Source: Oscillospiraceae bacterium
GTDB taxonomy: Bacteria; Bacillota; Clostridia; Oscillospirales; Oscillospiraceae
NCBI GenBank assembly: GCA_021203045.1
Contig: JAJQBY010000139.1
Coordinates: 1 to 49,922, forward strand
DNA: 49,922 nucleotides
Direction of reading: 5' to 3'
The notes under the pieces were generated by a model that did not search any database, was not told the origin of the DNA, and was given only the letters and a program-made list of their open reading frames with translations. Position 1 is the stretch's first letter; every line of letters begins with the position of its first letter. The translations under genes and the position numbers were made by a program. Shown piece by piece: positions 21,508-36,593 of this stretch.

Positions 21508-21611
21508 CCATCGCATACAGAGGAAAGCCGCTGCAATTTCGCTGACGAGTTCATTTTGGGTTCATACTTTCCGGGTATACTATCGTAAAAAACTCGGAAA
21601 GGAAGCTGCAC

Positions 21612-22277
21612 GTGGACAACGATAAGATCACACCCACCATCCAGAGCTCTCTCCGGCACATTCTGAAAATGCCGAAGGAATGCTACGGAGCCAGCGGCGT
21701 TGTGGTCAATGGCCGCCGCATCAAGAGCCTGGTGTTCACCACGGACGTGGCCATCATCCGCAACTGCGACGCGGACGCGGTGTTCGCCGTCTATCCATTC
21801 ACGCCCCAGCAGGCCATCAGCGAGGCGCTTGTGCGCTATTCCTATATCCCGGTGTTCTGCGGCGTGGGCGGCGGCACTACCAAGGGAATGCGCACCGTAG
21901 GACTGGCGAGGGATGTGGAGTGTCAGGGCGCCATGGGCGTGGTGCTGAACGCCCCCATTACCAATCTGAACCTGCTGGCTGTGGCAAAGGCTGTGGATAT
22001 CCCGGTTATCATCACCGTGGTGAATGAGGAGACGGACATTGCCCAGCGCCTTGCCTCCGGCGCGTCCATCCTGAACGTGGCCGGCGGCCCGAGCACCCCT
22101 GATATTGTTCGGCGGATACGAGAGGATTTCCCGGATGTGCCCATCATCGCCAGCGGCGGCAACACCGGGGAGATGATAAAAAAGACCATCGCCGCCGGCG
22201 CGAACGCCATCACCTATACCCCGTCCTCTACGGCGGAGCTGTTCAAGTCGATGATGCAGCGGTATCGGGAGCAATAA
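21612..22277 (+). CDS. TIM-barrel protein of unknown function (often annotated 'hydrolase')
   Basis: A 221-residue soluble protein. It has alternating strands and helices of a phosphate-binding TIM barrel, with ADAVFAVYPFTPQ, PVFCGVGGGTTKG, GAMGVVLNAPI, ILNVAGGP and the C-terminal PIIASGGNTGE and GANAITYTPSSTAE, which resemble phosphate-binding loops of HisF/ribulose-phosphate-type barrels. Start is GTG at 21612, with AAGGAAG upstream. A TATACT -10 lies at 21576-21581. It stands alone between xdh and a strong terminator. I recognise the family from clostridial genomes but know no demonstrated reaction. Confidence 0.65.
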   Translation: MDNDKITPTIQSSLRHILKMPKECYGASGVVVNGRRIKSLVFTTDVAIIRNCDADAVFAVYPFTPQQAISEALVRYSYIPVFCGVGGGTTKGMRTVGLARDVECQGAMGVVLNAPITNLNLLAVAKAVDIPVIITVVNEETDIAQRLASGASILNVAGGPSTPDIVRRIREDFPDVPIIASGGNTGEMIKKTIAAGANAITYTPSSTAELFKSMMQRYREQ

Positions 22278-22280
22278 CAC

Positions 22281-22317
22281 TCATCAGGGATAAAAGCTTT
22301 GCTTTTATCCCTGATGA
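22281..22317. terminator. Perfect 17-bp hairpin terminator
   Basis: Two perfectly complementary 17-base arms (22281-22297 and 22301-22317) around TTT, starting three bases after the TIM-barrel stop codon. There is no long T-run, but the arms contain GCTTTT. Likely a terminator or a strong RNA 3' stabiliser. Confidence 0.6.
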
Positions 22318-22498
22318 AGGGGCAGCGGCCTGACCTGCGCACTCAGCGTCCGCCTGCGGCGGCCACTTCGCACACTCCCAGGCTGAGAAGAATTTTTTTG
22401 CCACGTACACGCCGCGGCAAAAAATGATTTGATTTTATTCGCCGCTGCGGCGGCGAACTCTGCGAGGCTTTTTGGAAAATTTACACCAAGCGCGAAAA
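22318..22498. other. Gene-free spacer with several hairpins
   Basis: Between the TIM-barrel and MATE genes. It holds a CTCAGC/GCTGAG stem near 22341-22387 enclosing CCGCCTGCGGCGG, a TTTTTTGCC/GGCAAAAAA stem near 22393-22424 and the palindrome CGCCGCTGCGGCGGCG at 22440-22455. No gene with a ribosome site was seen. Confidence 0.45.
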
Positions 22499-22539
22499 CC
22501 ACCGGCATGAAGCGGAAAACGCTTCGTGCCGGTGGCTTT
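22499..22539. terminator. Bidirectional terminator after the MATE gene
   Basis: A 16-bp stem with one mismatch (22499-22514 and 22520-22535) and loop GAAAA, followed by CTTTT on plus and TTTTC on minus. Confidence 0.75.
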
Positions 22540-22557
22540 TATCGCAGGTGGGTGTTT

Positions 22558-23928
22558 TTATATAGCAGCGGTCAGCAGCTGCCGGTTTTTCCAGCGGCCG
22601 GTGGCAAAGTATATCCAGCCGCATATGACGGATACAAAGCCGGCCAGGGCGCTGCCCCACCAGTAGCCGTACAGCCCCATGCCCATGGGAATGGCCAGTA
22701 GCAGGCTCAGGCCGATGCGGGCCACCACGCCGTCCGCCAGGGCGATGACGAAGTTCAGCTTCACATTCCCCACGCCGCTGATAAGACCCAGTACCGGGGC
22801 CATCAGGGCGAAGGACAGGTACATCCACGTCAGGATGAACATATAATCCGGAGCCATGGCCAGCACCGCCTCATCCGAGGAGAAGATACCGAACACTGTC
22901 TGGGGAAACAGCAGACACAGGGCGGACAGGATGACCCAATAGGCAAGGCATATCCCTGTGGATACAAACAGGGACTTTTTCACCCGCTCCGGCTTTCGGG
23001 CGGCGATGTTCTGCCCTGTGACAGTGGCTTCCGCCGTCTGCATGGAATTTGTGATGATGTTGCAGAGGGAATAGAGCTTATTCCCTACGCCGCTGACCGC
23101 TGAGGCCACTACGCCATAGACGTTTACCCAGGCGTTCACGAACATCATGGAGATGTTAATGGCGATCTGCATGAAGGCCAGGGGCGCCGCCAGGCTGATC
23201 ACGACCCGCAGGGTGCGCTTGTGTATACGGAAGCTCTCCCGTTTGAAGTCGAAGCCGAAGGTCTCCCGGTGCTTATAAAGGTAGATAAGGGCAAAGAGGA
23301 AGCTGGCGAGCTGGGCGATGGAGGTCGCTATGCCTGCACCCTTGGCCCGCATGCCCAGGCCCCAGACCAGAACCAGATCCAGAATCATATTGGTGACGGC
23401 CGCCGCTGCGATGATGTACATGGGCCGGGTGGAGTCTCCCATGCCCCGCAGCACGGCGCAAAGGGTACCGTAGCCATAGGTGAAGGGGATGCCCAGGCAG
23501 CACCAGAACATATACTCCGTTGCGTCTGTCCAGGCCTCGCTGGGGGTGTTCAGGAGCCGCAGAACGGGGTTTTTGAATATGAGGCCCAGCGCAGTGACTA
23601 TCACTGCCAAAATGACCGTGAAGGACAGGGAGGTACCTATGGTGCGGCGTACGCCCTGCGTATCTCCGGAGCCTACCTGCTGAGATATAAGGATCTGGCA
23701 GCCGCTGCCCAGGCCGATGCCAAGGGCGTACAGCAGGAAGGTGATCTGCCCGGCGATGGAGACGGCGCTCAGCCCCTCGCTGCCCACCACCTGGCCCACC
23801 ACGGCCAGGTCCACCAGGTTATACAGGGTCTGCAGCAGGTTCGCCAGGGCAAGGGGGGCGGCATAGAGGAATATCTGCTTTGCCAGCGGCCCCTGTGTCA
23901 GGTCGTTTATCATGGTTTTTTGCTTCAT
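22558..23928 (-). CDS. MATE family efflux transporter
   Basis: A multidrug/toxin exporter of about 456 residues with roughly twelve membrane helices in two homologous halves. The N-terminus contains the family pattern PLALANLLQTLYNLVDLAVVGQVVG and the second half begins near VVISLAAPLAFMQIAINISMMFVNAW. Such proteins exchange Na+ or H+ for cationic drugs or metabolites. The ATG at 23928 is the probable start (MKQKTMINDL); a TTG at 23937 in the same frame is possible, and neither has a close ribosome site. Monocistronic; the substrate is unknown. Confidence 0.9.
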   Translation of the reverse strand: MKQKTMINDLTQGPLAKQIFLYAAPLALANLLQTLYNLVDLAVVGQVVGSEGLSAVSIAGQITFLLYALGIGLGSGCQILISQQVGSGDTQGVRRTIGTSLSFTVILAVIVTALGLIFKNPVLRLLNTPSEAWTDATEYMFWCCLGIPFTYGYGTLCAVLRGMGDSTRPMYIIAAAAVTNMILDLVLVWGLGMRAKGAGIATSIAQLASFLFALIYLYKHRETFGFDFKRESFRIHKRTLRVVISLAAPLAFMQIAINISMMFVNAWVNVYGVVASAVSGVGNKLYSLCNIITNSMQTAEATVTGQNIAARKPERVKKSLFVSTGICLAYWVILSALCLLFPQTVFGIFSSDEAVLAMAPDYMFILTWMYLSFALMAPVLGLISGVGNVKLNFVIALADGVVARIGLSLLLAIPMGMGLYGYWWGSALAGFVSVICGWIYFATGRWKNRQLLTAAI

Positions 23929-24004
23929 TGCGTTCAATATAAAATGGCCGGAGCCGTTCCTTTCTGAAAATTCGAATTCATTGCATAAGGCGCTTATGAA
24001 TTTG

Positions 24005-24038
24005 AACTCCCGAAAACCCAGCAGGGCTTCCGGGAGTT
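24005..24038. terminator. Hairpin between the MATE and pyrophosphatase genes
   Basis: AACTCCCG pairs with CGGGAGTT over a 17-18-base loop that can pair further internally. There is no strong T-run. It lies upstream of the MATE gene and downstream of hppA. Confidence 0.45.
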
Positions 24039-24054
24039 ATCTTGTGTTTCCGTA

Positions 24055-24086
24055 AAACCGCCTCACCTGGTTTCCCAGGTGAGGCA
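24055..24086 (-). terminator. Intrinsic terminator of hppA
   Basis: GCCTCACCTGG and CCAGGTGAGGC form an 11-bp stem; on the minus strand it is followed by GGTTTTACG. It begins 10 bases after the hppA stop codon. Confidence 0.75.
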
Positions 24087-24095
24087 GCGGTGTGA

Positions 24096-26228
24096 TCAGA
24101 ACAGGCCGATGACGTTGAAGGCAACGATCAGGCCGGAGAACACGATGGACACGGTGGAGCACAGCTTGATCAGGATGTTCAGGCTGGGGCCGGAGGTGTC
24201 CTTGAAGGGGTCGCCCACAGTGTCGCCTACAACGGCGGCCTTGTGCTGCTCGGAGCCCTTGCCTCCGTGGTTTCCACGCTCGATGTACTTCTTGGCGTTA
24301 TCCCAGGCGCCGCCGGCGTTGGACATGAACACCGCCATGGCGAAGCCGGTGACGGACACGCCGCCCAGCAGACCCACGACGCCGGTGGGCCCGAGGATCA
24401 GGCCGGTGACGATGGGAACGATGATAGCGAGCAGGGCGGGAATGACCATCTCATGCAACGCGCCCTTGGTGCACAGGGAAACGCAGGTGGAGTAGTCGGG
24501 GTCGGCCTTGTATTCCATGATGCCGGCGATTTCCCGGAATTGGCGGCGGACCTCCTGCACAATGGACTGGGCTGCGGTCTGCACCGCGCTCATGGTGAAG
24601 GCGGAGAACACGAACACCAGCATGGCGCCGATGAACAGGCCCACCAGGACGGTCGGGCTGGTCAGGGTGAAGTTCAGAACCACGTCGGTCTTCTCCTGCA
24701 CGATGTTCACATAGGACACCAGCAGGGCCAGAGCGGTCAGGGAAGCGGAGCCGATGGCGAAGCCCTTGCCGGTAGCGGCGGTGGTGTTGCCAAGGGAGTC
24801 CAGGGCGTCGGTACGGTCCCGGACCTCCTCCGGCAGACCGGCCATCTCGGCGATGCCGCCGGCGTTGTCGGCCACGGGGCCGTAAGCGTCCGTCGCCAGG
24901 GTGATGCCCAGGGTGGACAGCATGCCCACGCCGGCGATGCCGATGCCGTAAAGACCCTGGTTGAAAGCGGCGGTGAACTGGCCGTTCCCGTCCACGATGG
25001 TGGCGGAGCCGCCGGCAGCGAAGTAGCTGATAAGAACAGCGGCGCCCACGATCAGGATGGAGGCCATGGTGGACTTCAGGCCCAGGGAGATGCCGCCGAT
25101 GATGATGGTGGCGGAGCCGGTCTCGGAAGCCGCAGCCAGGTTCTGGGTGGGCTTGTAGTTATCGGAGGTGAAGTACTCGGTGAAGTAGCCGATGGCGGTG
25201 CCGCCGATCAGGCCGCACAGGATGGCTACATAGATGCCCCAGCAGTGATTTTCAGGGCCCATGATGAAGTAGCAGAGGGGCGCGGCCAGAACAGCGCTCA
25301 GGATGGCGGCGCTGTAGGTGCCGGTGCGCAGGCTCTTCAGCAGGCTCAGCTGGGTGGCGTCCTCCTTGGTCTTTACCAGGAAGCTGCCGATCAGGGAGCA
25401 GATGATGCCGCAGACGGCCAGGGCCAGGGGCAGGAGCATACCGGCCCAGCTGTATCCGGCCACAGCGCCCAGGGCGAAGGTCGCCAGGATGGAGCCCACA
25501 TAGCTCTCATACAGGTCGGCGCCCATACCGGCCACGTCGCCCACGTTGTCACCCACGTTGTCGGCGATGGTGGCGGGGTTACGGGGGTCGTCCTCAGGAA
25601 TGCCGGCCTCTACCTTGCCCACCAGGTCAGCGCCCACGTCGGCGGCCTTGGTGTAGATGCCGCCGCCCACACGGGCGAACAGAGCCATAAAGGAAGCGCC
25701 CATGCCGTTCATGACCATGATGTTGGCCATGGTGGTGGCGTCCATGTGGCCTATGTATTTCAGACCGAAGAACCAGAGGGTGATGTCCAGCAGGCCCAGG
25801 CCCACAACGGTGAAGCCCATGACGGTGCCGGAGGAGAAGGCCACGTTCAGACCCTTGTTCAGGCCCTCCTGGGCCGCATTGGCGGTGCGGGCGTTGGAGT
25901 TGGTGGCGATCTTCATGCCGATCAGGCCTGCCAGCATGGACCAGATGCCGCCGGTCAGGAACGCGAAGGGCGTTACCCGGGAGAGCATCTGCCCCTTGGA
26001 GGCAAAGGCGATGATGAGCAAAATGACGAACACGACGGCAAATACCTTGGCCACAGTGGTGTACTGCGCCTTCAGGTAAGCGTTGGCGCCCTCGCGGATG
26101 GCGGAAGCGAGCTTGACCATCTTCTCGTTGCCTTCAGAGAACTTCATGACCTTGTTTCTCTGCAGGGCGGCGAAGATGAGCGCGATCGCCGCACCCACGA
26201 AGCCGATCCAGAACAGGTTTTCAACCAT
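24096..26228 (-). CDS. hppA: Membrane-bound ion-pumping pyrophosphatase (K+-dependent, probably Na+-transporting)
   Basis: A 710-residue integral membrane enzyme, about 16 helices, that couples PPi hydrolysis to cation export. The substrate motifs [12 protein letters not shown] (about 196-207) and [23 protein letters not shown] (about 221-243) are complete. [10 protein letters not shown] (480-489) has Ala and Gly where K+-independent H+ pumps have Lys and Thr, which places it in the K+-dependent class. E241 in DLYESY takes the gate position of Na+ pumps, where typical H+ pumps have a Gly. So Na+ or Na+/H+ transport is expected, but this is inference from residues. It has its own promoter at 26268-26296, an AGGAG ribosome site and a terminator. 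Confidence 0.93.
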
Positions 26229-26267
26229 TTTGAAACCACTCCTATCAGTAAGTATTCAGACTTATTA

Positions 26268-26296
26268 ATAATATACTGTTCCGGCGTTTTTTTCAA
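26268..26296 (-). promoter_or_regulatory. Promoter of hppA
   Basis: Minus-strand TTGAAA and TATTAT with a 17-base spacer in a very AT-rich stretch, 40 bases before the start codon. Confidence 0.65.
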
Positions 26297-26364
26297 ATAA
26301 AACTTTTCATTTCCGGAAAAAATATATTTTTTTGTAAAATATAGCAATTCCCTCTAGGCTGGTT

Positions 26365-26370
26365 TATAAT
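26365..26370 (+). promoter_or_regulatory. -10 element of the threonine-synthase-like operon
   Basis: A perfect TATAAT about 70 bases before the start codon; the -35 region (TAGCAA) is poor. Confidence 0.4.
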
Positions 26371-26439
26371 AAAGTTATAAAAAACGCACGAAATAAACGG
26401 CCTGTTTTTGGCGGGAAAATATGGAAAGGGGAGCTGACC

Positions 26440-27663
26440 ATGCGGCAGGTAAGAGGCTTACGCTGCGTATTATGCGGAAAGGAGCAGAAAGCGGCTGCGG
26501 ACGCCACTACATGTCCCCATTGCGGGGGCATATTGGACGTGGTATACGACTATGACTATATCCGCTCCGTGACAAGTCCGGAGGAGATATCCCGGAGCGG
26601 GGACTATACCATGTGGCGGTACAGGCCCTTCCTTCCGGTGGAGGCGGATACGTCCCTCCCGCCCCTGGCGGTGGGGTGGACGCCGCTGTATCCAACGCCC
26701 CGGCTGGGGGAGGCGCTGGGCCTGTCCCGCCTGTGGCTCAAGGACGACGGCCAGAACCCTACGGCCAGCCTGAAGGACAGGGCCTCCGCCCTGGCGGTGG
26801 CGAAGGCGGTGGAGGCGGGGTATGACACCGTGGCCTGCTCCTCCACGGGGAACGCCGCATCCTCCCTGGCGGGAAGCGCCGCCGCCGCGGGACTGAAATC
26901 CTATATCTTCGTGCCGGAGCGGGCCCCGGCGGGCAAGCTGACCCAGCTTCTCATCTTCGGGGCCACGGTCATATCCGTTCAGGGCAATTATGAGCAGACC
27001 TTTGCCCTGAGCCGGGACGCCATAGAAAAATACGGCTGGTATAACCGCAATGCGGCCATAAACCCCTATCTGATGGAGGGGAAAAAAACCGTGGCCCTGG
27101 AGATCGCGGAGCAGCTGGGCTGGCAGGCCCCGGACTATGTGGCCCTGTCCGTGGGGGACGGCTGCACCATCGCCGGGGTGTGGAAGGGCTTCCGGGATCT
27201 TTACGCCGCCGGATTTATCCAAAAGCTGCCCCGGCTTATCAGCGTGCAGGCGGAGCGCACCTGTCCCATCAACCGGGCGGTGGAGACGGGCCGCCCCTGG
27301 GAGCCCATGGAGGAGAACACCCTGGCCGATTCCATCGCCGTGGGCGTGCCCCGGAACCCAGATAAGGCCATCGCCGCCATTCGCCAGTCGGACGGTCTCG
27401 CCGTGGAGGTATCCGACCAGGAGATACTGGACGCCATGGCCCTGGTGGGCTGCACCTGCGGGGTGTTCGCGGAGCCGGCCGGGGCCGCCGGGACGGCGGG
27501 GCTTATAAAGCTGTGCCGGATGGGGAAAATTCCCAGGGATGCCGCCGTGGTCTCCATCGTCACAGGAAACGGCCTGAAGGATACGGCGAACGGCATGAAG
27601 GCCGCCGGGGAGCCTATCCGCCTGCCGCCGGATATCGGCCTGCTGGAAAAGGTCCTGTCGTGA
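26440..27663 (+). CDS. thrC: Threonine synthase-like PLP enzyme with N-terminal zinc ribbon
   Basis: A fold-type II PLP enzyme of 407 residues. The N-terminus has a four-Cys zinc ribbon (C9, C12, C25, C28), as in many bacterial threonine synthases. PTASLKDRA contains K112, which binds PLP; SSTGNAASSLAG is the substrate/phosphate loop and GDGCTIAGVWKG the cofactor phosphate loop. It should make threonine from O-phosphohomoserine, but related beta-replacing enzymes cannot be excluded. The stop codon overlaps the GTG of a MocA-like nucleotidyltransferase, so both are co-translated, an odd pairing for threonine synthesis. GAAAGGGGAG precedes the ATG. Confidence 0.82.
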   Translation: MRQVRGLRCVLCGKEQKAAADATTCPHCGGILDVVYDYDYIRSVTSPEEISRSGDYTMWRYRPFLPVEADTSLPPLAVGWTPLYPTPRLGEALGLSRLWLKDDGQNPTASLKDRASALAVAKAVEAGYDTVACSSTGNAASSLAGSAAAAGLKSYIFVPERAPAGKLTQLLIFGATVISVQGNYEQTFALSRDAIEKYGWYNRNAAINPYLMEGKKTVALEIAEQLGWQAPDYVALSVGDGCTIAGVWKGFRDLYAAGFIQKLPRLISVQAERTCPINRAVETGRPWEPMEENTLADSIAVGVPRNPDKAIAAIRQSDGLAVEVSDQEILDAMALVGCTCGVFAEPAGAAGTAGLIKLCRMGKIPRDAAVVSIVTGNGLKDTANGMKAAGEPIRLPPDIGLLEKVLS

Positions 27664-28244
27664 TCGCCGCCGTTCTGCTGGCCTCCGGCCGGGGCAAGCG
27701 CTTCGGCCCGGATAAGCTGCTGTATGAGGTGGAGGGCGTTCCCATAGCGGAGCGGGCCTTCCGCGCCCTGCCTCCGGATATGCCGGCCCTTGTGGTGACG
27801 GGGGACAACCGGGTGGGGGCTTTGGCCCGGCGGCATGAAAATATCACCGTGGTGGAAAATACCGGCGGGCGGGACGATATATCTCTCACCATCCGCCTGG
27901 GCCTGCAGGCCCTGCCGGCAGATACGGAGGCCGCCCTTTTCTGCGTATGCGATCAGCCCTGGCTGACGAGGGCGAGCGTGGAGCGCCTTCTGGCCGCGTT
28001 CCGGGCGGAGCCGGAGGGGATATACGTCTTGGCCTGGGAGGGAAGGATGGGAAACCCCTGCCTGTTTCCCCGAAAATATTTCCCGGAGCTTGCCGCCCTG
28101 GAAAACGATCAGGGCGGCAAAGCCGTGATCGCTCGCCACCCGGAGGCGGTGCGCTGCGTGCAGGCCCTGGACCCCAGGGAGCTGGAGGATTTGGATATAC
28201 GGCCGGGAGAGAGAAATATAGACGGAAATATAAAGCAGATATAA
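27660..28244 (+). CDS. MocA/MobA-like nucleotidyltransferase (molybdenum cofactor cytidylyltransferase type)
   Basis: A 194-residue NTP transferase. The N-terminal LLASGRGKRFGPDKLL is the nucleotide-binding loop, CDQPWL (near residues 94-99) the metal-binding Asp region, and EGRMGNPCLFPRKYF the product loop typical of MocA-type enzymes that link CMP or GMP to molybdopterin. The start is a GTG whose bases overlap the TGA of the thrC-like gene (GTGA). Xanthine dehydrogenases need such a cytidylyltransferase, so it may mature the hydroxylase encoded at 18943-21507. The stop overlaps the ribosome site of the next lipoprotein gene. Confidence 0.82.
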   Translation: MIAAVLLASGRGKRFGPDKLLYEVEGVPIAERAFRALPPDMPALVVTGDNRVGALARRHENITVVENTGGRDDISLTIRLGLQALPADTEAALFCVCDQPWLTRASVERLLAAFRAEPEGIYVLAWEGRMGNPCLFPRKYFPELAALENDQGGKAVIARHPEAVRCVQALDPRELEDLDIRPGERNIDGNIKQI

Positions 28245-28258
28245 GGAGGAACGTAAAA

Positions 28259-29800
28259 ATGTCAAAAAATCTCCAAAAACGCACAAAACACAAAGTCTGG
28301 AGGAGTGTCATGAGCATTGTAATGCTGTTTGTGATTGTTGTAGGAACGACAGCCGGATGTCAGATGGAGGAAGAGGCCGATTCCTATGCAGCAAGCGAGG
28401 AGAAATACACGGGAAATGAGAGTGATGCCTCTGCGGACATTGAGGAGGATTACACGGAAAGCGAAGAGAATACCTCGTATGCGGATGTGGATGGCGAGAT
28501 AGAGGATATATCAGAGTCGGAACAGACCGTTAATATCTACGCTCTGTACGCGGAAGTCGTTCAGGAATATGAGGACACCTACGGAGAGCTAGAATTTTAC
28601 GAACAGACAGACTATAACTCTATAGAATATACTGGTGTATTTCTACTGGAATTAGTGGACTTTGATCAGGATGGCATTGAGGAACTTATCATTGGCTATT
28701 CTATTCCAGACAGCTTCGGCCAAGGATCCGTATGGCCTTATCTGGACGTTTGGAGGTTAGAGGATGGTGAACCTGTTCTGGCTTATGAGGGTGCTATTAT
28801 CGAACATGGTGATATTAGCAGACACTGTGCATTCACGCTGATGGATGGAAAATATTACCTTCTTGTTGGGCAGGAAGGATATGACATAAATCTCACTCTT
28901 CTGACACTAGTGGATGGGGAATTCGTTGCAGATATGACAATAGCGTTTGAAAACTCCACTGGAAATGATGTAACTTACACATTAAATGGATATGAAGTGG
29001 ATGAAGAAACCTGTAGGAACACATACAATCAGATATACGCTGGATGCCCATATTATTATTATTCGGAATGGGCGGATGGATGTTTTTGCGGAACAATCTT
29101 TGAAAGCTCTACTTATACTGCTGATGATTTAATTGATCATTTGAGTGAAGTGAAGCAATTGATTGGACTTGAGGAACAGGAGACCGATCTGACGGCATAC
29201 GCCAGCGTTGTGCAGCAATATGAGGACAGCTACGGCACCATTGGCTATAATACCTACTACCAGAACCAGGAGGCCCAGACGGGGGAGGCCTATATGCTCA
29301 CGGGCCTGTGCCTGGTGCAGCCCATCGATTTTGACGGGGATTCCGTTTATGAGCTGCTGATCGGCTATGGGGAGACGGTCGATGCGTCCACCGGACAGAC
29401 GGAGGTATACGGGGACGTGTGGGGGCTGGATGGCGATACCCCCGTCCTGCTCTACAGCGGAGCCAGCTTCCCGGGGGAGTCGTACTATAATGCGATTGCC
29501 TATAAGAATGAGGACGGCGTATATTATCTTTACGATGGATATTCTGAAAACAGATTTGCCCACGTTGATATTTATTGCCTGACGGATGGGAGCTTCACGA
29601 AGGTCTATACGCTGGAGGCGGATTTCTCCGGCGACAGCCCGCTCTATACCCTGAACGGGACGGCGGTCAGCATGACCGAGTATGCGGGATATGTCTCCGA
29701 CGGCCTTACAGAATTTTATGCCCAGGTTTCCAGTCTGGAAGCTTTCGAGACCTGCCGGGCCGATCTGGAATCGACGTGCAGCGAGATGGGACTGCAATAA
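28259..29800 (+). CDS. Lipoprotein with two Asp-rich DxDxDGxxEL domains (paralogue A)
   Basis: A 513-residue lipoprotein of unknown function. The hydrophobic leader ends in lipobox TTAGC (Cys at residue 34), followed by a Glu/Asp/Ser-rich linker to about 90. Two domains follow, each opening with (A/L)YA.VVQ.YED.YG: domain 1 from about 95 with VDFDQDGIEELIIGY (134-148), domain 2 from about 313 with IDFDGDSVYELLIGYGE (about 357). These motifs resemble calcium-binding FG-GAP/VCBS-type loops. AAGGAGG overlaps the mocA-like stop. Domain 2 is almost identical to the last domain of the lipoprotein at 32776 over 29206-29759, at a fixed offset of 5135 bases and without gaps. Confidence 0.75.
   Translation: MSKNLQKRTKHKVWRSVMSIVMLFVIVVGTTAGCQMEEEADSYAASEEKYTGNESDASADIEEDYTESEENTSYADVDGEIEDISESEQTVNIYALYAEVVQEYEDTYGELEFYEQTDYNSIEYTGVFLLELVDFDQDGIEELIIGYSIPDSFGQGSVWPYLDVWRLEDGEPVLAYEGAIIEHGDISRHCAFTLMDGKYYLLVGQEGYDINLTLLTLVDGEFVADMTIAFENSTGNDVTYTLNGYEVDEETCRNTYNQIYAGCPYYYYSEWADGCFCGTIFESSTYTADDLIDHLSEVKQLIGLEEQETDLTAYASVVQQYEDSYGTIGYNTYYQNQEAQTGEAYMLTGLCLVQPIDFDGDSVYELLIGYGETVDASTGQTEVYGDVWGLDGDTPVLLYSGASFPGESYYNAIAYKNEDGVYYLYDGYSENRFAHVDIYCLTDGSFTKVYTLEADFSGDSPLYTLNGTAVSMTEYAGYVSDGLTEFYAQVSSLEAFETCRADLESTCSEMGLQ
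29206..29759 (+). repeat. Direct repeat copy 1 (about 554 bp)
   Basis: Nearly identical in sequence to 34341-34894, same strand, no indels seen. Encodes the last Asp-rich domain of lipoprotein A. The two copies could recombine and delete the 5.1 kb between them. Confidence 0.85.
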
Positions 29801-29858
29801 CATTTTCCGCCGCTGTGCGGTTGCGCAATAAACAATCAAGAGTTCGGAGGAAAAACAA

Positions 29859-32747
29859 ATGGCAAGAACAGAAAATAATCGCAGAGGACGGAAACGCTGG
29901 CGGATTGTGGTGATCGTGGTCCTTTGCCTGCTGGTGTGTGCGTTCATTGGGCTGATGAAGCTGGGACAGGGAAGCCAGGACGATGCCAGCATCGAGAAGG
30001 GAACAGCTCTGACGGATGAGGAGGCGGAGAGCATCACGTTTGGGGATATCTCCGATGAGGATTGGGAGATATTTGAATCTGCCAACGAGGAGCTCAGTCA
30101 GATTATTGCGTCGTACTCCAACGAGGACGGCTATATCGACCCCGACGATACGGAGGCAGTGCTAAATGCTGTAACGGAGCAGGTGGACGCGCTGTATGAG
30201 AACGGGACGGTAACATATTACCTTTGCACTTCGGATACGATAAGCTTTGAATTCGCCAGCGGGATCGCGGCCTTATATACGCCGGCCCTGGAGGGCTATG
30301 CCGCCGGAGGTGGGGACACCACTATTTTGGCGTTTGATATATTCTCTGACGAGGAATTCCAGGGAGAAGGCAAAGATTGGTTTGGAGAATACAGCGATAA
30401 GGGAACCGGTTATTATCAGGCCGCAGGCAGATTAGCGTCAGAATTACAGGAGGCCATTTCCGGCTCGTACGTCTACACCTGGGTGGGAGAAGCGGCAGAT
30501 TTGGATGCGCTGCGTGATCTTCCGGAAGCAGATATTCTGCTTTGGAATGGTCATGGAGTATTCTGTAACGATGCTTATCCGGTTTTGGTCACGCAAGAAA
30601 GAGACATGGGCGGATTGATAGAAGCATCATATAACTGCTATATACGCGACTTTGTTTACTTAACAGGTGACCCGGGTTATTGGGCGATCACGCCGAGTTT
30701 TGTGAGAAAGTATATATCGTTAGATCAGGGGCTTGTTTACCTTAACGCATGCCAAAGCGGAAGAAACGATGAACTGGCGAACGCTTTTTTATACAGTGGC
30801 GCGGAGGTCGTTTTTGTAAACGTAGGAGGTGATGTATGGGCTTTTTACGGTCAATGGATGATGAAAACGATCATGGAATATATGTCCGGGGAATATGACG
30901 GCATATATCACACGGCGGCAGAATCGCTGTTTTTGGCAAATGGGGTGCTGTCTAATTTCTGCTCGGGCATCGGCGGTGTGGATGAGCTGACCCTTTGGAA
31001 CACGACTGGAGACAGAGAGTGGTTTTCGTCCACCTATGGAAGCTTTTCATCTTTGGATGAATTTCTTCAAAAGGTAACCGGCGGAACGCATGTGGAATAC
31101 CGTGGCAACGGCGACTATACGCTCTGCCCCTGCATCCGGGGCGAGGTAACCTTTGCGGAGGGCATGACGGAGGATGAGATCGAGGAGGTCCTGTCGTCTG
31201 GGCTGACGGTTCAGCTGACGAAGGAGGACGGCTCATCCCTGGTGACTGCAGACGTGAATGAGGATGGAACGTTTTATTTCAACGATGTCGAGGCCGAAAC
31301 AACGTATGTGATATCTTCGTATGGGATTGCTGAACAGTCTGTTACGGTGAGAGTGGAGAAGCACAGCTATGCAGAGGTATCCTTGGAGTACTCCAAGCGG
31401 GTGACCCTGGAGGGGTACGTATACGATACGGACGGAGCGCCGCTCTCCGGGGTGACGGTGAGCGCGGATATGACGGGGGGCTCTAATCTGTGGGGTGGTG
31501 AAACCCAGACCAACGATGAGGGATATTATGCGCTGGAGGTCTACGGGGAAAACACATACGCGCTGACCTACAGCAAATCCGGCTATACGAAGCAGGAGAC
31601 CACCTTTGAGATAACCTCCGAGATGTTTGAGGAAGCGCAGGCGGGGGTACCCTGTACGCTGGAGGATGTGGAGCTATCGTTTGACCTCTATGCCCGATAC
31701 GCGGAGATCGTTCAGGAATACGAGGATGCTCACGGTGCATTTAATCTTCAGCAATTAGGCTGGTGTGTCAGTGCTGAAGGCGTGAATTATTTGCAGCTTG
31801 TAGACATGGACGGCGATGGAGTGGAGGAATTGCTCATAGGATATATGGATTCCTTCACTACCAGCTATTTTATCGAGGTCTGGACGTATAAAGAGGATGA
31901 GGCCAAGTGTGTAGGGAACATTGAATGCTACTTGCGAGGCATTGAGGTCGTTGGTGTGTGTACCACGAACATCAATGGGACGTTTGCAATCATCAGCGGC
32001 GGGATTTACGCCGGGTACACGGGCTGGACGTATGATGGTGAAGCTCTGAATGCAGTTGCGACTTATACGGATGATGAGTTCGACAGCTTAGCTACCACAA
32101 TTACATACCTTAATGCGGGAAACTCAAACACGGATGCAGAAAAAGCCGAACTTATGGGAGCATGGGATGCTGTCCGTGAAACGAAGGAGGCGCTTTCCTG
32201 CATTACGGATGCAGAAAAGGCTTTGGTGGCCTATCAGTTTACCTTGCTATATGATGACACAACGGGGTGGTATGCCGCTGATAACAGTGACAGCTTAAAA
32301 TTTGAATACATTTATGTGGACGATGACGATGTACCTGAATTGGTCGTGTCTTCAGATAGCAGTTTACCCGCCAGCGCATATTTGTATACTTATTATGATG
32401 GGCAGGTGAACATGCTGGGGCAATTTGGCTATTACGGTGACCTGGAATATAGCGAGAAAAATAACGTGATACTAAGTGGATTGTCCCGCCAGGGCTATAT
32501 TGAATATTATTACTATGAGATACTAAACGGTACAGCAAGCCTGATACATTATTTTTCATGTTCTTATGACGAAAAAACGATAATCGATACGGGAGAGTGG
32601 GTTTATTCGGACTGTAAGATCGATAATGTGTCGGTATCGGAGTCCGTTTACAGCGCAACTCTTTCAGAGATTACAGATGATATTACGTTCACAGTTGCAG
32701 GCCATTCAACCGGGCAGTATGTATATCAGGCAATGGGAAGTTATTAA
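29859..32747 (+). CDS. Membrane-anchored protein with caspase/CHAT-like His-Cys domain
   Basis: A 962-residue protein without a match I can name. After a basic start, one membrane helix (about 15-34) anchors it with the bulk outside. Residues about 120-400 have the pattern of a clan CD peptidase (caspase, CHAT, gingipain): a strand ending ILLWNGHG with H232, and a strand ending LVYLNACQSG with C298, followed by GAEVVFVNVGGDVWAFYGQWMM. Residues about 510-590 look like a carboxypeptidase-regulatory/CnaB-type beta-sandwich (GYVYDTDGAPLSGVTVSA). Then comes the same YAEIVQEYEDAHG and VDMDGDGVEELLIGY domain as in the flanking lipoproteins, and a further beta-rich tail. GGAGG precedes the ATG. Protease activity is inferred only from the dyad. 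Confidence 0.6.
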   Translation: MARTENNRRGRKRWRIVVIVVLCLLVCAFIGLMKLGQGSQDDASIEKGTALTDEEAESITFGDISDEDWEIFESANEELSQIIASYSNEDGYIDPDDTEAVLNAVTEQVDALYENGTVTYYLCTSDTISFEFASGIAALYTPALEGYAAGGGDTTILAFDIFSDEEFQGEGKDWFGEYSDKGTGYYQAAGRLASELQEAISGSYVYTWVGEAADLDALRDLPEADILLWNGHGVFCNDAYPVLVTQERDMGGLIEASYNCYIRDFVYLTGDPGYWAITPSFVRKYISLDQGLVYLNACQSGRNDELANAFLYSGAEVVFVNVGGDVWAFYGQWMMKTIMEYMSGEYDGIYHTAAESLFLANGVLSNFCSGIGGVDELTLWNTTGDREWFSSTYGSFSSLDEFLQKVTGGTHVEYRGNGDYTLCPCIRGEVTFAEGMTEDEIEEVLSSGLTVQLTKEDGSSLVTADVNEDGTFYFNDVEAETTYVISSYGIAEQSVTVRVEKHSYAEVSLEYSKRVTLEGYVYDTDGAPLSGVTVSADMTGGSNLWGGETQTNDEGYYALEVYGENTYALTYSKSGYTKQETTFEITSEMFEEAQAGVPCTLEDVELSFDLYARYAEIVQEYEDAHGAFNLQQLGWCVSAEGVNYLQLVDMDGDGVEELLIGYMDSFTTSYFIEVWTYKEDEAKCVGNIECYLRGIEVVGVCTTNINGTFAIISGGIYAGYTGWTYDGEALNAVATYTDDEFDSLATTITYLNAGNSNTDAEKAELMGAWDAVRETKEALSCITDAEKALVAYQFTLLYDDTTGWYAADNSDSLKFEYIYVDDDDVPELVVSSDSSLPASAYLYTYYDGQVNMLGQFGYYGDLEYSEKNNVILSGLSRQGYIEYYYYEILNGTASLIHYFSCSYDEKTIIDTGEWVYSDCKIDNVSVSESVYSATLSEITDDITFTVAGHSTGQYVYQAMGSY

Positions 32748-32775
32748 CCGTAAATCAAGATGGAGGAAAATAAAG

Positions 32776-34935
32776 ATGTCAAAGCAACAGAAAAAACGTA
32801 TAGGACACAAGCATTTGTGGAGCGCCATGGTCATTGTGATGCTGTTCGCGATCATTGTGGGAGCGACAGCCGGGTGTCAGGCGAGAGAAGAAACCGATTC
32901 CTATGCGGACAGTGAGGATGATTACACGGAAAGGGAGAGTGATACGCTGTATGCAGATGTGGAGGAGGAGAGCGTCTCTGCAGAGGATATATCGGAGCCG
33001 GAACCGGAAACGGATACCTACGCTCTATACGCGGAAGTCGTTCAGGAATACGAGGACACCTACGGCGAGGGCGCATGTATCGTTGAGTATGAATATGGTT
33101 CCGGTAACGCTTCTTACATAATGAACGGCACATACCTTGTTCAGCTCCTTGATTTCAATGGAGATGGGCAGGAGGAGCTTTTGATCGGCGTCTGCACAGA
33201 TTCCGCTACCTCCTGGGTCGATGTGTGGGCCTATGAGGACGGAGAGGTGGTCAAGGTCTATTCGCCTGAGCTACAGGCGGAGGAGTCCCTTTATACTTAT
33301 GGGAGCGGATATGCCTATTATAATATCGCGCATGGCAGCGACATAGGTTTATATGTGGAATATACTTCATACAACGGAAAGATTTACCTGATACAAGGCT
33401 TCAGAGGCTCGAGTGAACAATATTATTATTTCGAATACATAGATGGAACGTTCCGGAGAGTAAAGACCATAGAGATTCTGGAAGATGACAACTGGACCCC
33501 ACAGATTGACGGGCAGACGGTGACCGACGAGGAGTGGAGCAGTGAGCTGGCCCTCTGGAACGACGGATTGGTGTCGTATCTTGTGAGAGGCGGCGGCGCG
33601 GAAATGGGCGATACGCTGCTGGAAATCACCGCGAAGACAAAGGCCATTCTTGGAATGGAGGCCGAGGAGACCGACCTGGCCGCATATGCCAGCGTTTTGC
33701 AGCAATACGAGGAGACCTACGGCGCGGGTGGCTATCAGGAATATGAGTACGCAGGATACGGGGTGACAGGAACATATTTTGCGCAGCTGCTGGATTTTGA
33801 TGGCGATGGCGTGGAGGAGCTGCTGGTGGGCGTCTATGACAAGGATAACTATAGCAATATAACATCAGTGGCTGACGGATACAGATACCCATGGGTGGAG
33901 ATATGGGCCTTATTGGATGGAAACGCAACGAAGGTATACTCGCCCGATATGCAGTGCGAATCCGCGGGGACGAATAACGTGTTTGGCGGCGATATCAGCA
34001 CCTATATAGCATATACAGTCTATGATGGAAGGATCTATATGCTCCAGGGAACTAGAGGATATGCGCCGGTACTGTATTATTACGGCTACATCGATGGAGA
34101 ATTTCAGCTGGTCCGATCGGTCGACTATTGTGAGGCAGATGACTATTACAGTATTGACGGCGTTTCGGTAACCCAGGATGAGTTTGAGGCAGAACAGGAA
34201 GCCTGGGATGCCGGCCTGGTCTTATATTGCGTTTTTGGTGCAACGGAAGATCAACTGCAGACTGTAAGTGAGATCACCGCGCAGACAAAGGCCCTTCTTG
34301 GAATGGGGGACGAGGAGACCGACCTGACTGTGTATGCCGACGTTGTGCAGCAATATGAGGACACCTACGGCACCATCGGCTATAATACCTACTACCAGAA
34401 CCGGGAGGCCCAGACGGGGGAGGCCTATATGCTCACAGGCCTGTGCCTGGTGCAGCCCATCGACTTTGACGGGGATTCCGTCTATGAGCTGCTGATCGGC
34501 TATGGAGAGACGGTCGATGCATCCACCGGACAGACGGAGGTATACGGGGACGTGTGGGGACTGGATGGCGATACCCCCGTCCTGCTCTACAGCGGAGCCA
34601 GCTTCCCGGGGGAGTCGTACTATAATGCGATTGCCTATAAGAATGAGGACGGCGTATATTATCTTTACGATGGATATTCTGAAAACAGATTTGCCCACGT
34701 TGATATTTATTGTCTGACGGACGGGAGCTTCACGAAGGTCTATACGCTGGAGGCGGATTTCTCCGGCGACAGTCCGCTCTATACCATGAACGGGACGGCG
34801 ATCAGCATGACCGAGTATGCGGGATATGTCTCCGACGGCCTTACGGAATTCTATGCTCAGGTCTCCAGCCTGGAGGCCTTCGAGACCTGCCGGGATGATT
34901 TGATTTCAGTATTCAATCAAATGGGACTGAAGTGA
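32776..34935 (+). CDS. Lipoprotein with three Asp-rich DxDxDGxxEL domains (paralogue B)
   Basis: A 719-residue paralogue of the lipoprotein at 28259. The leader matches it closely and ends in lipobox ATAGC (Cys at about 34), with an acidic linker to about 80. Three domains start near residues 83, 303 and 519, each with YA.V.Q.YE.TYG, and carry LDFNGDGQEELLIGV, LDFDGDGVEELLVGV and IDFDGDSVYELLIGY. The third copy is the near-identical duplicate of paralogue A's last domain. ATG 32776 follows GGAGG by 7-10 bases. It lies 28 bases after the caspase-like gene, so the three genes probably form one transcript. No function known. Confidence 0.75.
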   Translation: MSKQQKKRIGHKHLWSAMVIVMLFAIIVGATAGCQAREETDSYADSEDDYTERESDTLYADVEEESVSAEDISEPEPETDTYALYAEVVQEYEDTYGEGACIVEYEYGSGNASYIMNGTYLVQLLDFNGDGQEELLIGVCTDSATSWVDVWAYEDGEVVKVYSPELQAEESLYTYGSGYAYYNIAHGSDIGLYVEYTSYNGKIYLIQGFRGSSEQYYYFEYIDGTFRRVKTIEILEDDNWTPQIDGQTVTDEEWSSELALWNDGLVSYLVRGGGAEMGDTLLEITAKTKAILGMEAEETDLAAYASVLQQYEETYGAGGYQEYEYAGYGVTGTYFAQLLDFDGDGVEELLVGVYDKDNYSNITSVADGYRYPWVEIWALLDGNATKVYSPDMQCESAGTNNVFGGDISTYIAYTVYDGRIYMLQGTRGYAPVLYYYGYIDGEFQLVRSVDYCEADDYYSIDGVSVTQDEFEAEQEAWDAGLVLYCVFGATEDQLQTVSEITAQTKALLGMGDEETDLTVYADVVQQYEDTYGTIGYNTYYQNREAQTGEAYMLTGLCLVQPIDFDGDSVYELLIGYGETVDASTGQTEVYGDVWGLDGDTPVLLYSGASFPGESYYNAIAYKNEDGVYYLYDGYSENRFAHVDIYCLTDGSFTKVYTLEADFSGDSPLYTMNGTAISMTEYAGYVSDGLTEFYAQVSSLEAFETCRDDLISVFNQMGLK
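34341..34894 (+). repeat. Direct repeat copy 2 (about 554 bp)
   Basis: Second copy of 29206-29759, offset exactly 5135 bases along its length. A few synonymous and conservative changes are visible, mostly toward the ends. Confidence 0.85.
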
Positions 34936-34985: not shown

Positions 34986-36362
34986 ATGAAGGTATGGAAA
35001 ATCATCTCTGGTGTTGTATCTATCTTCTTTTCTCTGATAACACTGTACGCGGAGTTCATGAATGAGATTGCACGGTCAGCTACGGATGGGTATGTATTCC
35101 TGTGGGGGCTTGGTGCGTGTTTACTAGTGTTGGTAGGTGGAACCGTAGCTGTTTCTACCAGTAATAGCAAGAGCGTAGTAAGTTGTGCGTGGACAGTCGT
35201 TTTGTACGGAGCTGCAATGATTTTGGATATATGCATTGGTGTGTGGACAAACAATGGAAATGCGCAATTTTCCTCTGACTTTATGCTGTGGTGCATATGG
35301 AATCTTATTTGCATGATGGTTGCCGTAATAAGTATTGCAACGACAGTATCTCAGAGTCAGCAATTAGAAGAAAATAGCAGCCAAACCATTTCCAGCCATG
35401 ATAATACATACCATACAAATTCAAATGCCAGCGTTAAAAGGCCCGGTCTGATAAATGCTGTAACGGTGCTTTGCGTCATAGTTGTAGCTTTGGTCTTCTT
35501 TGCCACAAGAGGAAAAAACGACTCCGAGGTTGCTGACTCTGGCAGAACATCAAGTGCAGTATCATCTACGGTTGAATCGTCATCAGCTACAACTCGTCCT
35601 ACATCAACCACAAAACCAACGGAAGCTCCTGCGGCGAGTATAGAAACCCCTGTGGTCTATGACGAGAATGGAATTACTATTACTGCCACAGCGATTAATG
35701 ACGACTCTATCGACTTTACCATAGTTAATGATGCGGATTTCGATATATATGTTCAATTCAGTTATCTTGTTGTTAATGGAGCTTCTGCAACGGGTGTTAT
35801 GTGGTGTGATGTTGCAACAGGGAAAAAGGCTAACACAACTCTGTATTTCACAGATTTAGATTATCTGAATATCACGGAGATTGTAAGCGCAGAGCTAATG
35901 TATGGCTACATCCTCAACACAGACACGGATGAGGTCGTTGACTATCTGGACTTCAGCCTGACTACCACAAAAGCAGACTCATACAAGCAATCGTTCGACA
36001 TATACGGGGACGCCCTTTACGACGATGGCGATTATGCTGTATATGGTTCTTTCTTTGGAAGTACCCCCGTTGTCTTGATTGAAAACGATACGGACAGTGC
36101 AATATATGTACATTTTGACAATGTGTCAGTAAGCGGTGTAATGGTATATCCATATACCACTTCGGGTACTCCTGTTTACCCCGGAACAGTCAGAGCGTTT
36201 GAGCTGGGGCTTTACTCATCAAACCTAGCAGAGGCAGGGCTGGAGAAGAACGATGTAGACAACATTTCTTTCGCTGTTGAATTCAACCGATACACGCAGG
36301 GGAGTGTTTCAACAGCAGATGACCTATACCAGACCGAGGAACTGACTATCACAAAAGATTGA
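34986..36362 (+). CDS. Membrane protein with duplicated extracellular beta-domain, unknown function
   Basis: A 458-residue protein. Four hydrophobic segments fill residues 1-125 and a fifth lies near 155-175 (LINAVTVLCVIVVALVFFA). A Ser/Thr-rich linker (about 184-216) leads to two similar domains of about 100 residues, recognisable by DFTIVNDADFDIYVQF/VVNGASATGVM and VLIENDTDSAIYVHF/VSVSGVMV. This fold is common in Bacillota surface proteins but I cannot assign a role. The gene is clearly richer in A and T than its neighbours, with rare-looking codons such as ATA and TTA, suggesting later acquisition. GGGGGGAAG lies about 10 bases before the ATG. Confidence 0.7.
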   Translation: MKVWKIISGVVSIFFSLITLYAEFMNEIARSATDGYVFLWGLGACLLVLVGGTVAVSTSNSKSVVSCAWTVVLYGAAMILDICIGVWTNNGNAQFSSDFMLWCIWNLICMMVAVISIATTVSQSQQLEENSSQTISSHDNTYHTNSNASVKRPGLINAVTVLCVIVVALVFFATRGKNDSEVADSGRTSSAVSSTVESSSATTRPTSTTKPTEAPAASIETPVVYDENGITITATAINDDSIDFTIVNDADFDIYVQFSYLVVNGASATGVMWCDVATGKKANTTLYFTDLDYLNITEIVSAELMYGYILNTDTDEVVDYLDFSLTTTKADSYKQSFDIYGDALYDDGDYAVYGSFFGSTPVVLIENDTDSAIYVHFDNVSVSGVMVYPYTTSGTPVYPGTVRAFELGLYSSNLAEAGLEKNDVDNISFAVEFNRYTQGSVSTADDLYQTEELTITKD

Positions 36363-36439: not shown

Positions 36440-36593
36440 TTTCTTAGAAAGGAAATTATAACCCCTGGCGTTGCATCGGGAAGGAAAACGTTCCAGCGAA
36501 CATGGGATTGTGGCGATAGCTTCTCGCAGGTAATACCACTGTTTCATTGGAGCTTACGGTCTCCCATCTTGACAGATGGGGGGCCGTCTTTTA
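36440..36593 (+). ncRNA. Candidate structured RNA, possibly a decayed T-box-like leader
   Basis: Three consecutive hairpins can be drawn: around 36469-36501 (GTTGC, GGGAA with TTCC, GCGAAC), around 36502-36546 (ATGGGA, GTGG, CGA with TCG, CCAC, TTTCAT) and the terminator at 36556-36593. The bases AGGTAATACCACTG before a terminator recall the T-box AGGGTGGTACCACG, but the UGG that pairs with tRNA is absent. It may be a degenerate leader or an independent small RNA. Confidence 0.3.
36556..36593 (+). terminator. Intrinsic terminator overlapping a promoter
   Basis: ACGGTCTCCCATCT pairs with AGATGGGGGGCCGT (a G-T and one mismatch) around TGAC, then CTTTT. The TTGACA of the next promoter spans its loop. 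Confidence 0.75.

Follow-up and report, generated by a model that had tools for sequence, protein, structure and literature searches.

A membrane-anchored caspase-like protein at a variable surface-protein locus of an Oscillospiraceae bacterium

Do a caspase-like membrane protein and the two related lipoproteins that flank it form a dedicated system, or are they one version of a surface locus that changes from genome to genome? We addressed this question for three genes on GenBank contig JAJQBY010000139.1 (assembly GCA_021203045.1) of an Oscillospiraceae bacterium. The window, that is, the whole stretch of 49,922 nucleotides that was analysed, is one entire contig of a 2.59 Mb draft genome of 144 contigs. 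The genes are LP1 (lipoprotein, 513 amino acids, two copies of a domain that we call YED; 28259..29800 (+)), CASP (membrane-anchored caspase-like protein, 962 amino acids; 29859..32747 (+)) and LP2 (lipoprotein, 719 amino acids, three YED domains; 32776..34935 (+)). They are open frames arranged head to tail on the + strand with gaps of 58 and 28 bases, and AGGAGG/GGAGG precedes the ATG of each. We think it reasonably probable (roughly 0.6) that CASP is a surface clan CD endopeptidase in a hypervariable surface-protein locus, of which the three genes are one allele. An earlier sequence-only reading, made by a model from the letters of this stretch, had the gene coordinates, the gaps, the lipoboxes and the numbering of H232 and C298 right; its idea of a conserved three-gene association fared differently, as shown below.

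CASP starts with an N-terminal transmembrane anchor (residues ~16-33; 29904..29957 (+)), visible in the sequence and in its hydropathy, which is preceded by RRGRKRWR; the protein has no lipobox. The expected topology is N-in/C-out, hence extracytoplasmic. A helix pair and a beta hairpin follow (30045..30311 (+)), which in the model could possibly be a prodomain; they recur across much of the 27-row peptidase alignment described below. Residues 152-380 (30312..30998 (+)) then form the predicted alpha/beta core of clan CD, caspase-like type, in which H232 of NGHG (residues 230-233; 30552..30554 (+)) stands directly after one core strand and C298 of NACQSG (residues 296-301; 30750..30752 (+)) directly after another. 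In the model's own numbering, strand 162-168 leads to H170 and strand 226-234 to C236. The structure check that the sequence-only reading had proposed thus gave the marks of clan CD, a caspase-like alpha/beta/alpha fold in which core strands lead, at their C-terminal ends, to the His and the Cys of the dyad. On the whole of the observations CASP is very probably catalytically active. The core is followed by a stalk of two CarboxypepD_reg/CnaB-like beta-sandwich domains (31194..31616 (+)), a sandwich already suspected from the letters and now matched to CarboxypepD_reg with an E-value of 1.6e-14. Two YED domains close the protein: the first contains DMDGDGVEELLIGY (31683..32177 (+)), while the second is degenerate (32220..32744 (+); iE 1.3e-26, itself a row of the profile that matched it).

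To which family does this core belong? The best structural match of CASP was the transmembrane anti-sigma factor DdvA (8rw5, 8rot) with a Z of 14.5; a family absent from the fold-match lists was not treated as excluded. In the Pfam, NCBIfam and PADLOC scans, for which the LP1 query carried two extra upstream codons and the LP2 query one, Pfam CHAT (PF12770, cut-off 24 bits) reached 17.4 bits with the CASP domain and 14.6 bits with the whole protein, and NCBIfam gave no match for the caspase-like region, so that no family over its cut-off names it. CHAT was found at E<=0.1 in nine of the 27 aligned members. When 20 of the 27 were scored singly, two passed, L049 at 33.3 bits with most of the domain covered and L014 at 26.2, and the other 18 failed, which ties the family to CHAT through a few members and yet leaves it divergent; none of 196 class genomes came above this cut-off. 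The designation CHAT-like in the sequence-only reading therefore holds for the family and not for CASP itself. Pfam C25 (PF01364) matched none of the 27 members at E<=0.1 and nothing in the own genome, and C11 and Peptidase_C14 likewise matched none of the 27 at that E-value. A profile comparison with the C25 protein of a class-level genome (probability 1.2, p 0.042) revealed no C25 kinship at the sequence level, and PDB sequences searched with the peptidase profile gave six arabinanase rows at chance level (E 1.2-2.2). By the cut-offs tried, CASP lies outside CHAT, C25, C11 and C14; according to the model it is built like them and probably works like them, and in sequence its family grades into CHAT.

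Among 400 genomes from the taxonomic family, a six-row profile matched 23, which belong to 15 of 106 genera, and a class-level search matched eight of 391 genomes, the own one included. The former gave 33 peptidase places (own included), of which 27 entered the alignment and six weaker ones were left out. From the seven other class-level places five were fetched (two, G412 and G448, were unused), and one of these, L105 of G676, stayed outside the tree and the 32-row count. The 32-row set, aligned by another method, thus holds the 27 members (window included), L128 and four class-level relatives. The His was kept in 27 of 27 and the Cys in 25 of 27 rows of the first alignment, and each in 30 of 32 rows of the second. 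A hydrophobic segment precedes the domain in 31 of the 32, the exception (L014) starting at a contig end; together with the anchor topology this agrees with the extracytoplasmic placement that had been read from the letters. L012 and L015 carry S-layer homology (SLH) domains, L013 a zinc ribbon and L128 a lipobox. In a second large clade (L056, L063, L052, L054 and kin), made up of long surface proteins, the motif reads DSHG.TD ... C.(G/S)MAT; some genomes hold several of these proteins, G258 at four places and G052 at three. A close-relative scan with the peptidase domain returned 28 pattern stretches and no relatives. Phages and plasmids (tblastn) and viral contigs gave no match, and the mobile-element question was examined no further.

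The two lipoproteins start alike, with MSK..., a hydrophobic stretch and ...TAGC. Both follow the bacterial lipoprotein pattern of a basic N-terminus, a hydrophobic stretch and a lipobox ending in AGC, whose Cys is C34 in LP1 (28358-28360 (+)) as in LP2 (32875-32877 (+)). By these sequence features LP1 and LP2 are surface lipoproteins made of YED modules of about 200 residues. LP1 holds D1a (28532..29194 (+)) and a last domain D3 (29192..29797 (+)), and LP2 holds D1' (33010..33672 (+)), D2 (33673..34335 (+); the copy whose structure was modelled) and its own last domain D3 (34333..34932 (+)). Of the copies counted by the YED profile, LP1 has two, LP2 three and CASP one; all six were the profile's own rows, and its E-values are for this reason not independent proof. 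In single-sequence searches of the own genome, CASP recovered LP2 (1.3e-9) and LP1 (1.7e-9), and LP2 recovered CASP (4.2e-10). By these searches the domain common to all three proteins, as first noticed in the letters, exceeds chance. The YED loops are Asp-rich and of FG-GAP type: FG-GAP (PF01839, cut-off 22.1 bits) scored 37.1 in LP2 and 24.2 in LP1, and 15.7, below the cut-off, in CASP. A calcium sensor role was set aside, its basis being this FG-GAP-like loop only. Tandem repeats were searched for and none was found.

If the three genes were a fixed unit, relatives should show it. Among 35 genomes of the genus, CASP had matches in two, the own genome and G791, and YED domains occurred in six, strongly in four, which carry them at a common place. 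The three-gene form was found in only one of the 35, and the three syntenic sisters, as seen on their draft contigs, differ in content. In G095, whose flanks are 86-91% identical to the window in nucleotides, a lipoprotein start and D1' run to one contig's end, while the rest of D1', D2 and D3 open another contig; LP2 matches these pieces. In G257 an upstream flank of 86% is followed by a lipoprotein start and D1', and then by D3 up to where the contig stops. Neither G095 (97% complete) nor G257 gave any peptidase match genome-wide. G791 has a single gene at this place, consisting of the lipoprotein start, a Flg_new repeat, a caspase-like domain (LTHG, NACQSG), a weak sandwich match, a further stretch and D3; an SDR gene follows it. 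G257 and G791 are 95.5% identical in their upstream flank and differ in locus contents. Since this place is built otherwise in the closest relatives, LP1-CASP-LP2 is not a fixed unit of three parts; of the two refuting conditions set by the sequence-only reading, the lack of the three-gene association in related genomes thus goes against it, and the lack of a caspase-like fold does not. Amino-acid identity is ~30% between CASP and the G791 peptidase, whereas it reaches 87% for D3. A tree places the G791 peptidase beside that of G115, which is from another genus (97/84), and joins this pair to the window (94/51), so that the CASP and G791 genes may not be simple orthologues. Elsewhere in G791 (L145; G791:C61, 334-3471 and 3468-4451, both -) the genes of a YED lipoprotein and of an M4-type protein with a membrane anchor overlap by 4 bases. 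The latter protein matches M4 peptidase and the FTP propeptide, matches CarboxypepD_reg below the threshold and has a C-terminus that looks YED-like by eye; through this pairing, YED modules are found with surface peptidases of more than one class, the catalytic class here being unrelated to that of CASP.

The nucleotides carry further signs of exchange. LP1 (guanine-cytosine (GC) content.48), CASP (.49), LP2 (.52) and a fourth gene (.44) form a low-GC tract, which the sequence-only reading did not mention, between flanks at.65 (PALP),.64 (NTP transferase) and.64 (SDR), with a GtrA-like gene beyond at.54. LP1 and LP2 are 94.05% identical over 605 bases at their 3' ends, a likeness that the sequence-only reading had missed. 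Of 638 positions compared there, 51 differ, and these fall into 15 within the central 500 bases and 36 at the two ends; an identical run of 152 bases lies in the central part of the D3 copies. This difference pattern is what one would expect of gene conversion. In protein, the two D3 agree in 189 of 202 residues. The D3 copies are 94% identical to each other as against 84-89% to sister copies (for LP1 D3: G095 89.4%, G791 87.8%, G257 83.9%, the last partial). The blastn match of D1a to the sister loci is limited to its first ~57 bases.

We therefore favor the reading of a surface endopeptidase at a hypervariable locus, which builds on the observed gene content, domain relations, synteny, GC shift and conservation of His and Cys. 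CASP, from a divergent family that is CHAT-like, would be a cysteine endopeptidase of clan CD, tethered to the membrane and facing outward, and ordered from the N-in/C-out anchor through a prodomain-like region, the core with H232 and C298 and the beta-sandwich stalk to the YED domains, which may position the enzyme at the surface. By analogy with clan CD it would most likely cleave extracellular or surface proteins after a single preferred P1 residue. Two elements of the locus, the signal region of the lipoprotein and the D3 at its terminus, would be kept, while recombination between these common ends would swap the middle. Such shared-end recombination would leave the peptidase as a separate gene in this genome, inside a lipoprotein in G791 and not found in G095 and G257. 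Several points weigh against this reading. The Foldseek E-values are weak (best 0.045), and the VIA rows re-examine Foldseek's own list. Tree support for window, G115 and G791 is mixed (94/51). The draft contigs of the metagenome-assembled genomes end inside YED genes, and the peptidase absence in G095 and G257 may thus be an assembly gap. The GC edge is softer on the GtrA-like side, given the.54 of that gene. L014 and L016, which are mutually close, lack the Cys in both alignments, and one alignment loses their His as well, so that some members may act non-catalytically or be dead. Finally, no partner gene that would name a pathway recurs across the 33 peptidase loci. As to L014 (1010-3007 (-)) and L016 (8299-10758 (-)) themselves, NAS/GAS replaces the Cys and the HG is shifted by two residues (IHGCG/LHGGG); by sequence they are probable pseudoenzymes, and L016 nearly reaches the CHAT cut-off.

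These Cys-less homologues, the SLH proteins L012 and L015 and the top rank of DdvA would also suit a surface sensor or adhesin, in which the caspase-like domain is a fold for binding a ligand or partner, perhaps as in DdvA, and cleavage is secondary. We consider this unlikely: the Cys is retained in 30 of 32 members, the neighboring genes scanned contain no sigma factor match, and with only 15 residues before the membrane helix CASP has no anti-sigma domain. Slightly less likely still is that YED is an enzyme-inhibitor or immunity-type domain, with LP1, LP2 and the YED part of CASP restraining the peptidase or blocking attacking wall hydrolases; the likeness of YED to the XAC2610/PliI/CarG beta domains is too low for kinship of fold to be trusted, with no family over its cut-off. 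A wider idea, which we find doubtful, takes the locus, in gut Oscillospiraceae, as a surface cassette that generates diversity: its fixed ends would be recombination handles that exchange peptidases and YED domains, its YED domains would be tethered inhibitor/immunity or targeting modules, and by its polymorphic surface peptidases neighbors would compete or evade host recognition.

The dedicated operon of the sequence-only reading, with LP1 and LP2 as calcium sensors that switch on the peptidase, has the common strand, the short gaps, neither of them with a + strand terminator-like site, and the Asp-rich FG-GAP-type loops on its side. It appears improbable, since the three-gene form was seen in one of the 35 genomes of the genus, three sisters are arranged differently at this place, and the 33 loci show no recurring partner. 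That LP1-CASP-LP2 were misjoined through the common D3 repeat could be suspected from the 152-base run in a draft of 144 contigs; yet 30 of the 51 differences between the 3' ends are third codon positions, and a CASP-type protein is fused to D3 at the same place in G791, which makes such an artefact very improbable. An intracellular defence or cell-death CHAT system, for which the predicted CHAT-like fold and the CHAT matches in the family speak, we regard as hardly credible. The anchor is N-in/C-out, PADLOC found nothing for CASP and LP1, one 14-bit CARF match for LP2 and a match at 0.0056 in one of 27 members, and there was no phage, plasmid or viral contig match; on topology and PADLOC a defence system was rejected.

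Upstream of LP1, 18943-28244 encodes a selenium-dependent xanthine dehydrogenase (TIGR03311), a MATE transporter, a membrane pyrophosphatase, a threonine synthase-like PALP protein and a MocA-like nucleotidyltransferase (below its cut-off), whose end lies 14 bases before the LP1 start. The fourth gene of the low-GC tract, absent from the sequence-only reading, encodes a membrane protein of 458 amino acids (34986..36362 (+); GC 0.435) and is the last of the tract; it is split into two frames in G095 and absent in G791. A terminator-like stem of 14 pairs with a T-rich tail lies 3' of it (36556..36587 (+)), and the count of terminator-like sites in the region, this one among them, equals the shuffle mean. 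In at least three of the 33 peptidase loci, only co-clustering surface proteins, ABC ATPases, opposite-strand open reading frames and SDR recur.

How does CASP compare with known proteins? Solved CHAT peptidases are cytoplasmic CRISPR/CBASS-type effectors, and gingipains, structurally solved clan CD relatives, are secreted. CASP differs from the CHAT peptidases (PF12770; SAVED-CHAT 8tl0, Craspase TPR-CHAT/Csx29) by its score below the cut-off and its anchoring outside, and from the gingipains (C25; RgpB/Kgp), with ~10% identity, by its membrane anchor and YED domains. Like DdvA of Myxococcus xanthus, which restrains a sigma factor according to PMC4374960, it is a membrane protein with a caspase-like domain, but it has no cytoplasmic domain. 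PmC11, a clostripain-type C11 enzyme of a gut bacterium, is described in PMC4850288 as a clan CD protein with the His/Cys dyad at strand ends; CASP is predicted to share clan and dyad, whereas its C-terminal domains are others and it has no C11 match. A 2012 survey of 671 metacaspase sequences counts 98 membrane proteins, 30 extracellular ones and seven that are both; most of the 98 were so grouped for a helix at the N-terminus, possibly a signal peptide (PMC3501461). CASP resembles the prokaryotic metacaspases with such an N-terminal transmembrane or signal segment in being extracytoplasmic, and differs in having no Peptidase_C14 match. With extracytoplasmic caspase homologues known from this survey, and with the gingipains as secreted relatives, the statement of the sequence-only reading that an outside location would be unusual finds no support. 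Among the matches listed in the open-access literature, no description of the CASP family or of the DdvA structure was found.

In summary, LP1-CASP-LP2 holds a probable surface peptidase of a caspase-like kind already known outside the cytoplasm, and the three genes do not make up a conserved system. Few surface caspase-like proteins of the CASP type have a name in the two curated libraries that were scanned. If active, they would be commensal surface peptidases able to reach host or neighbor proteins, and the allele differences at a single locus offer a tractable route to what drives change in surface peptidases.

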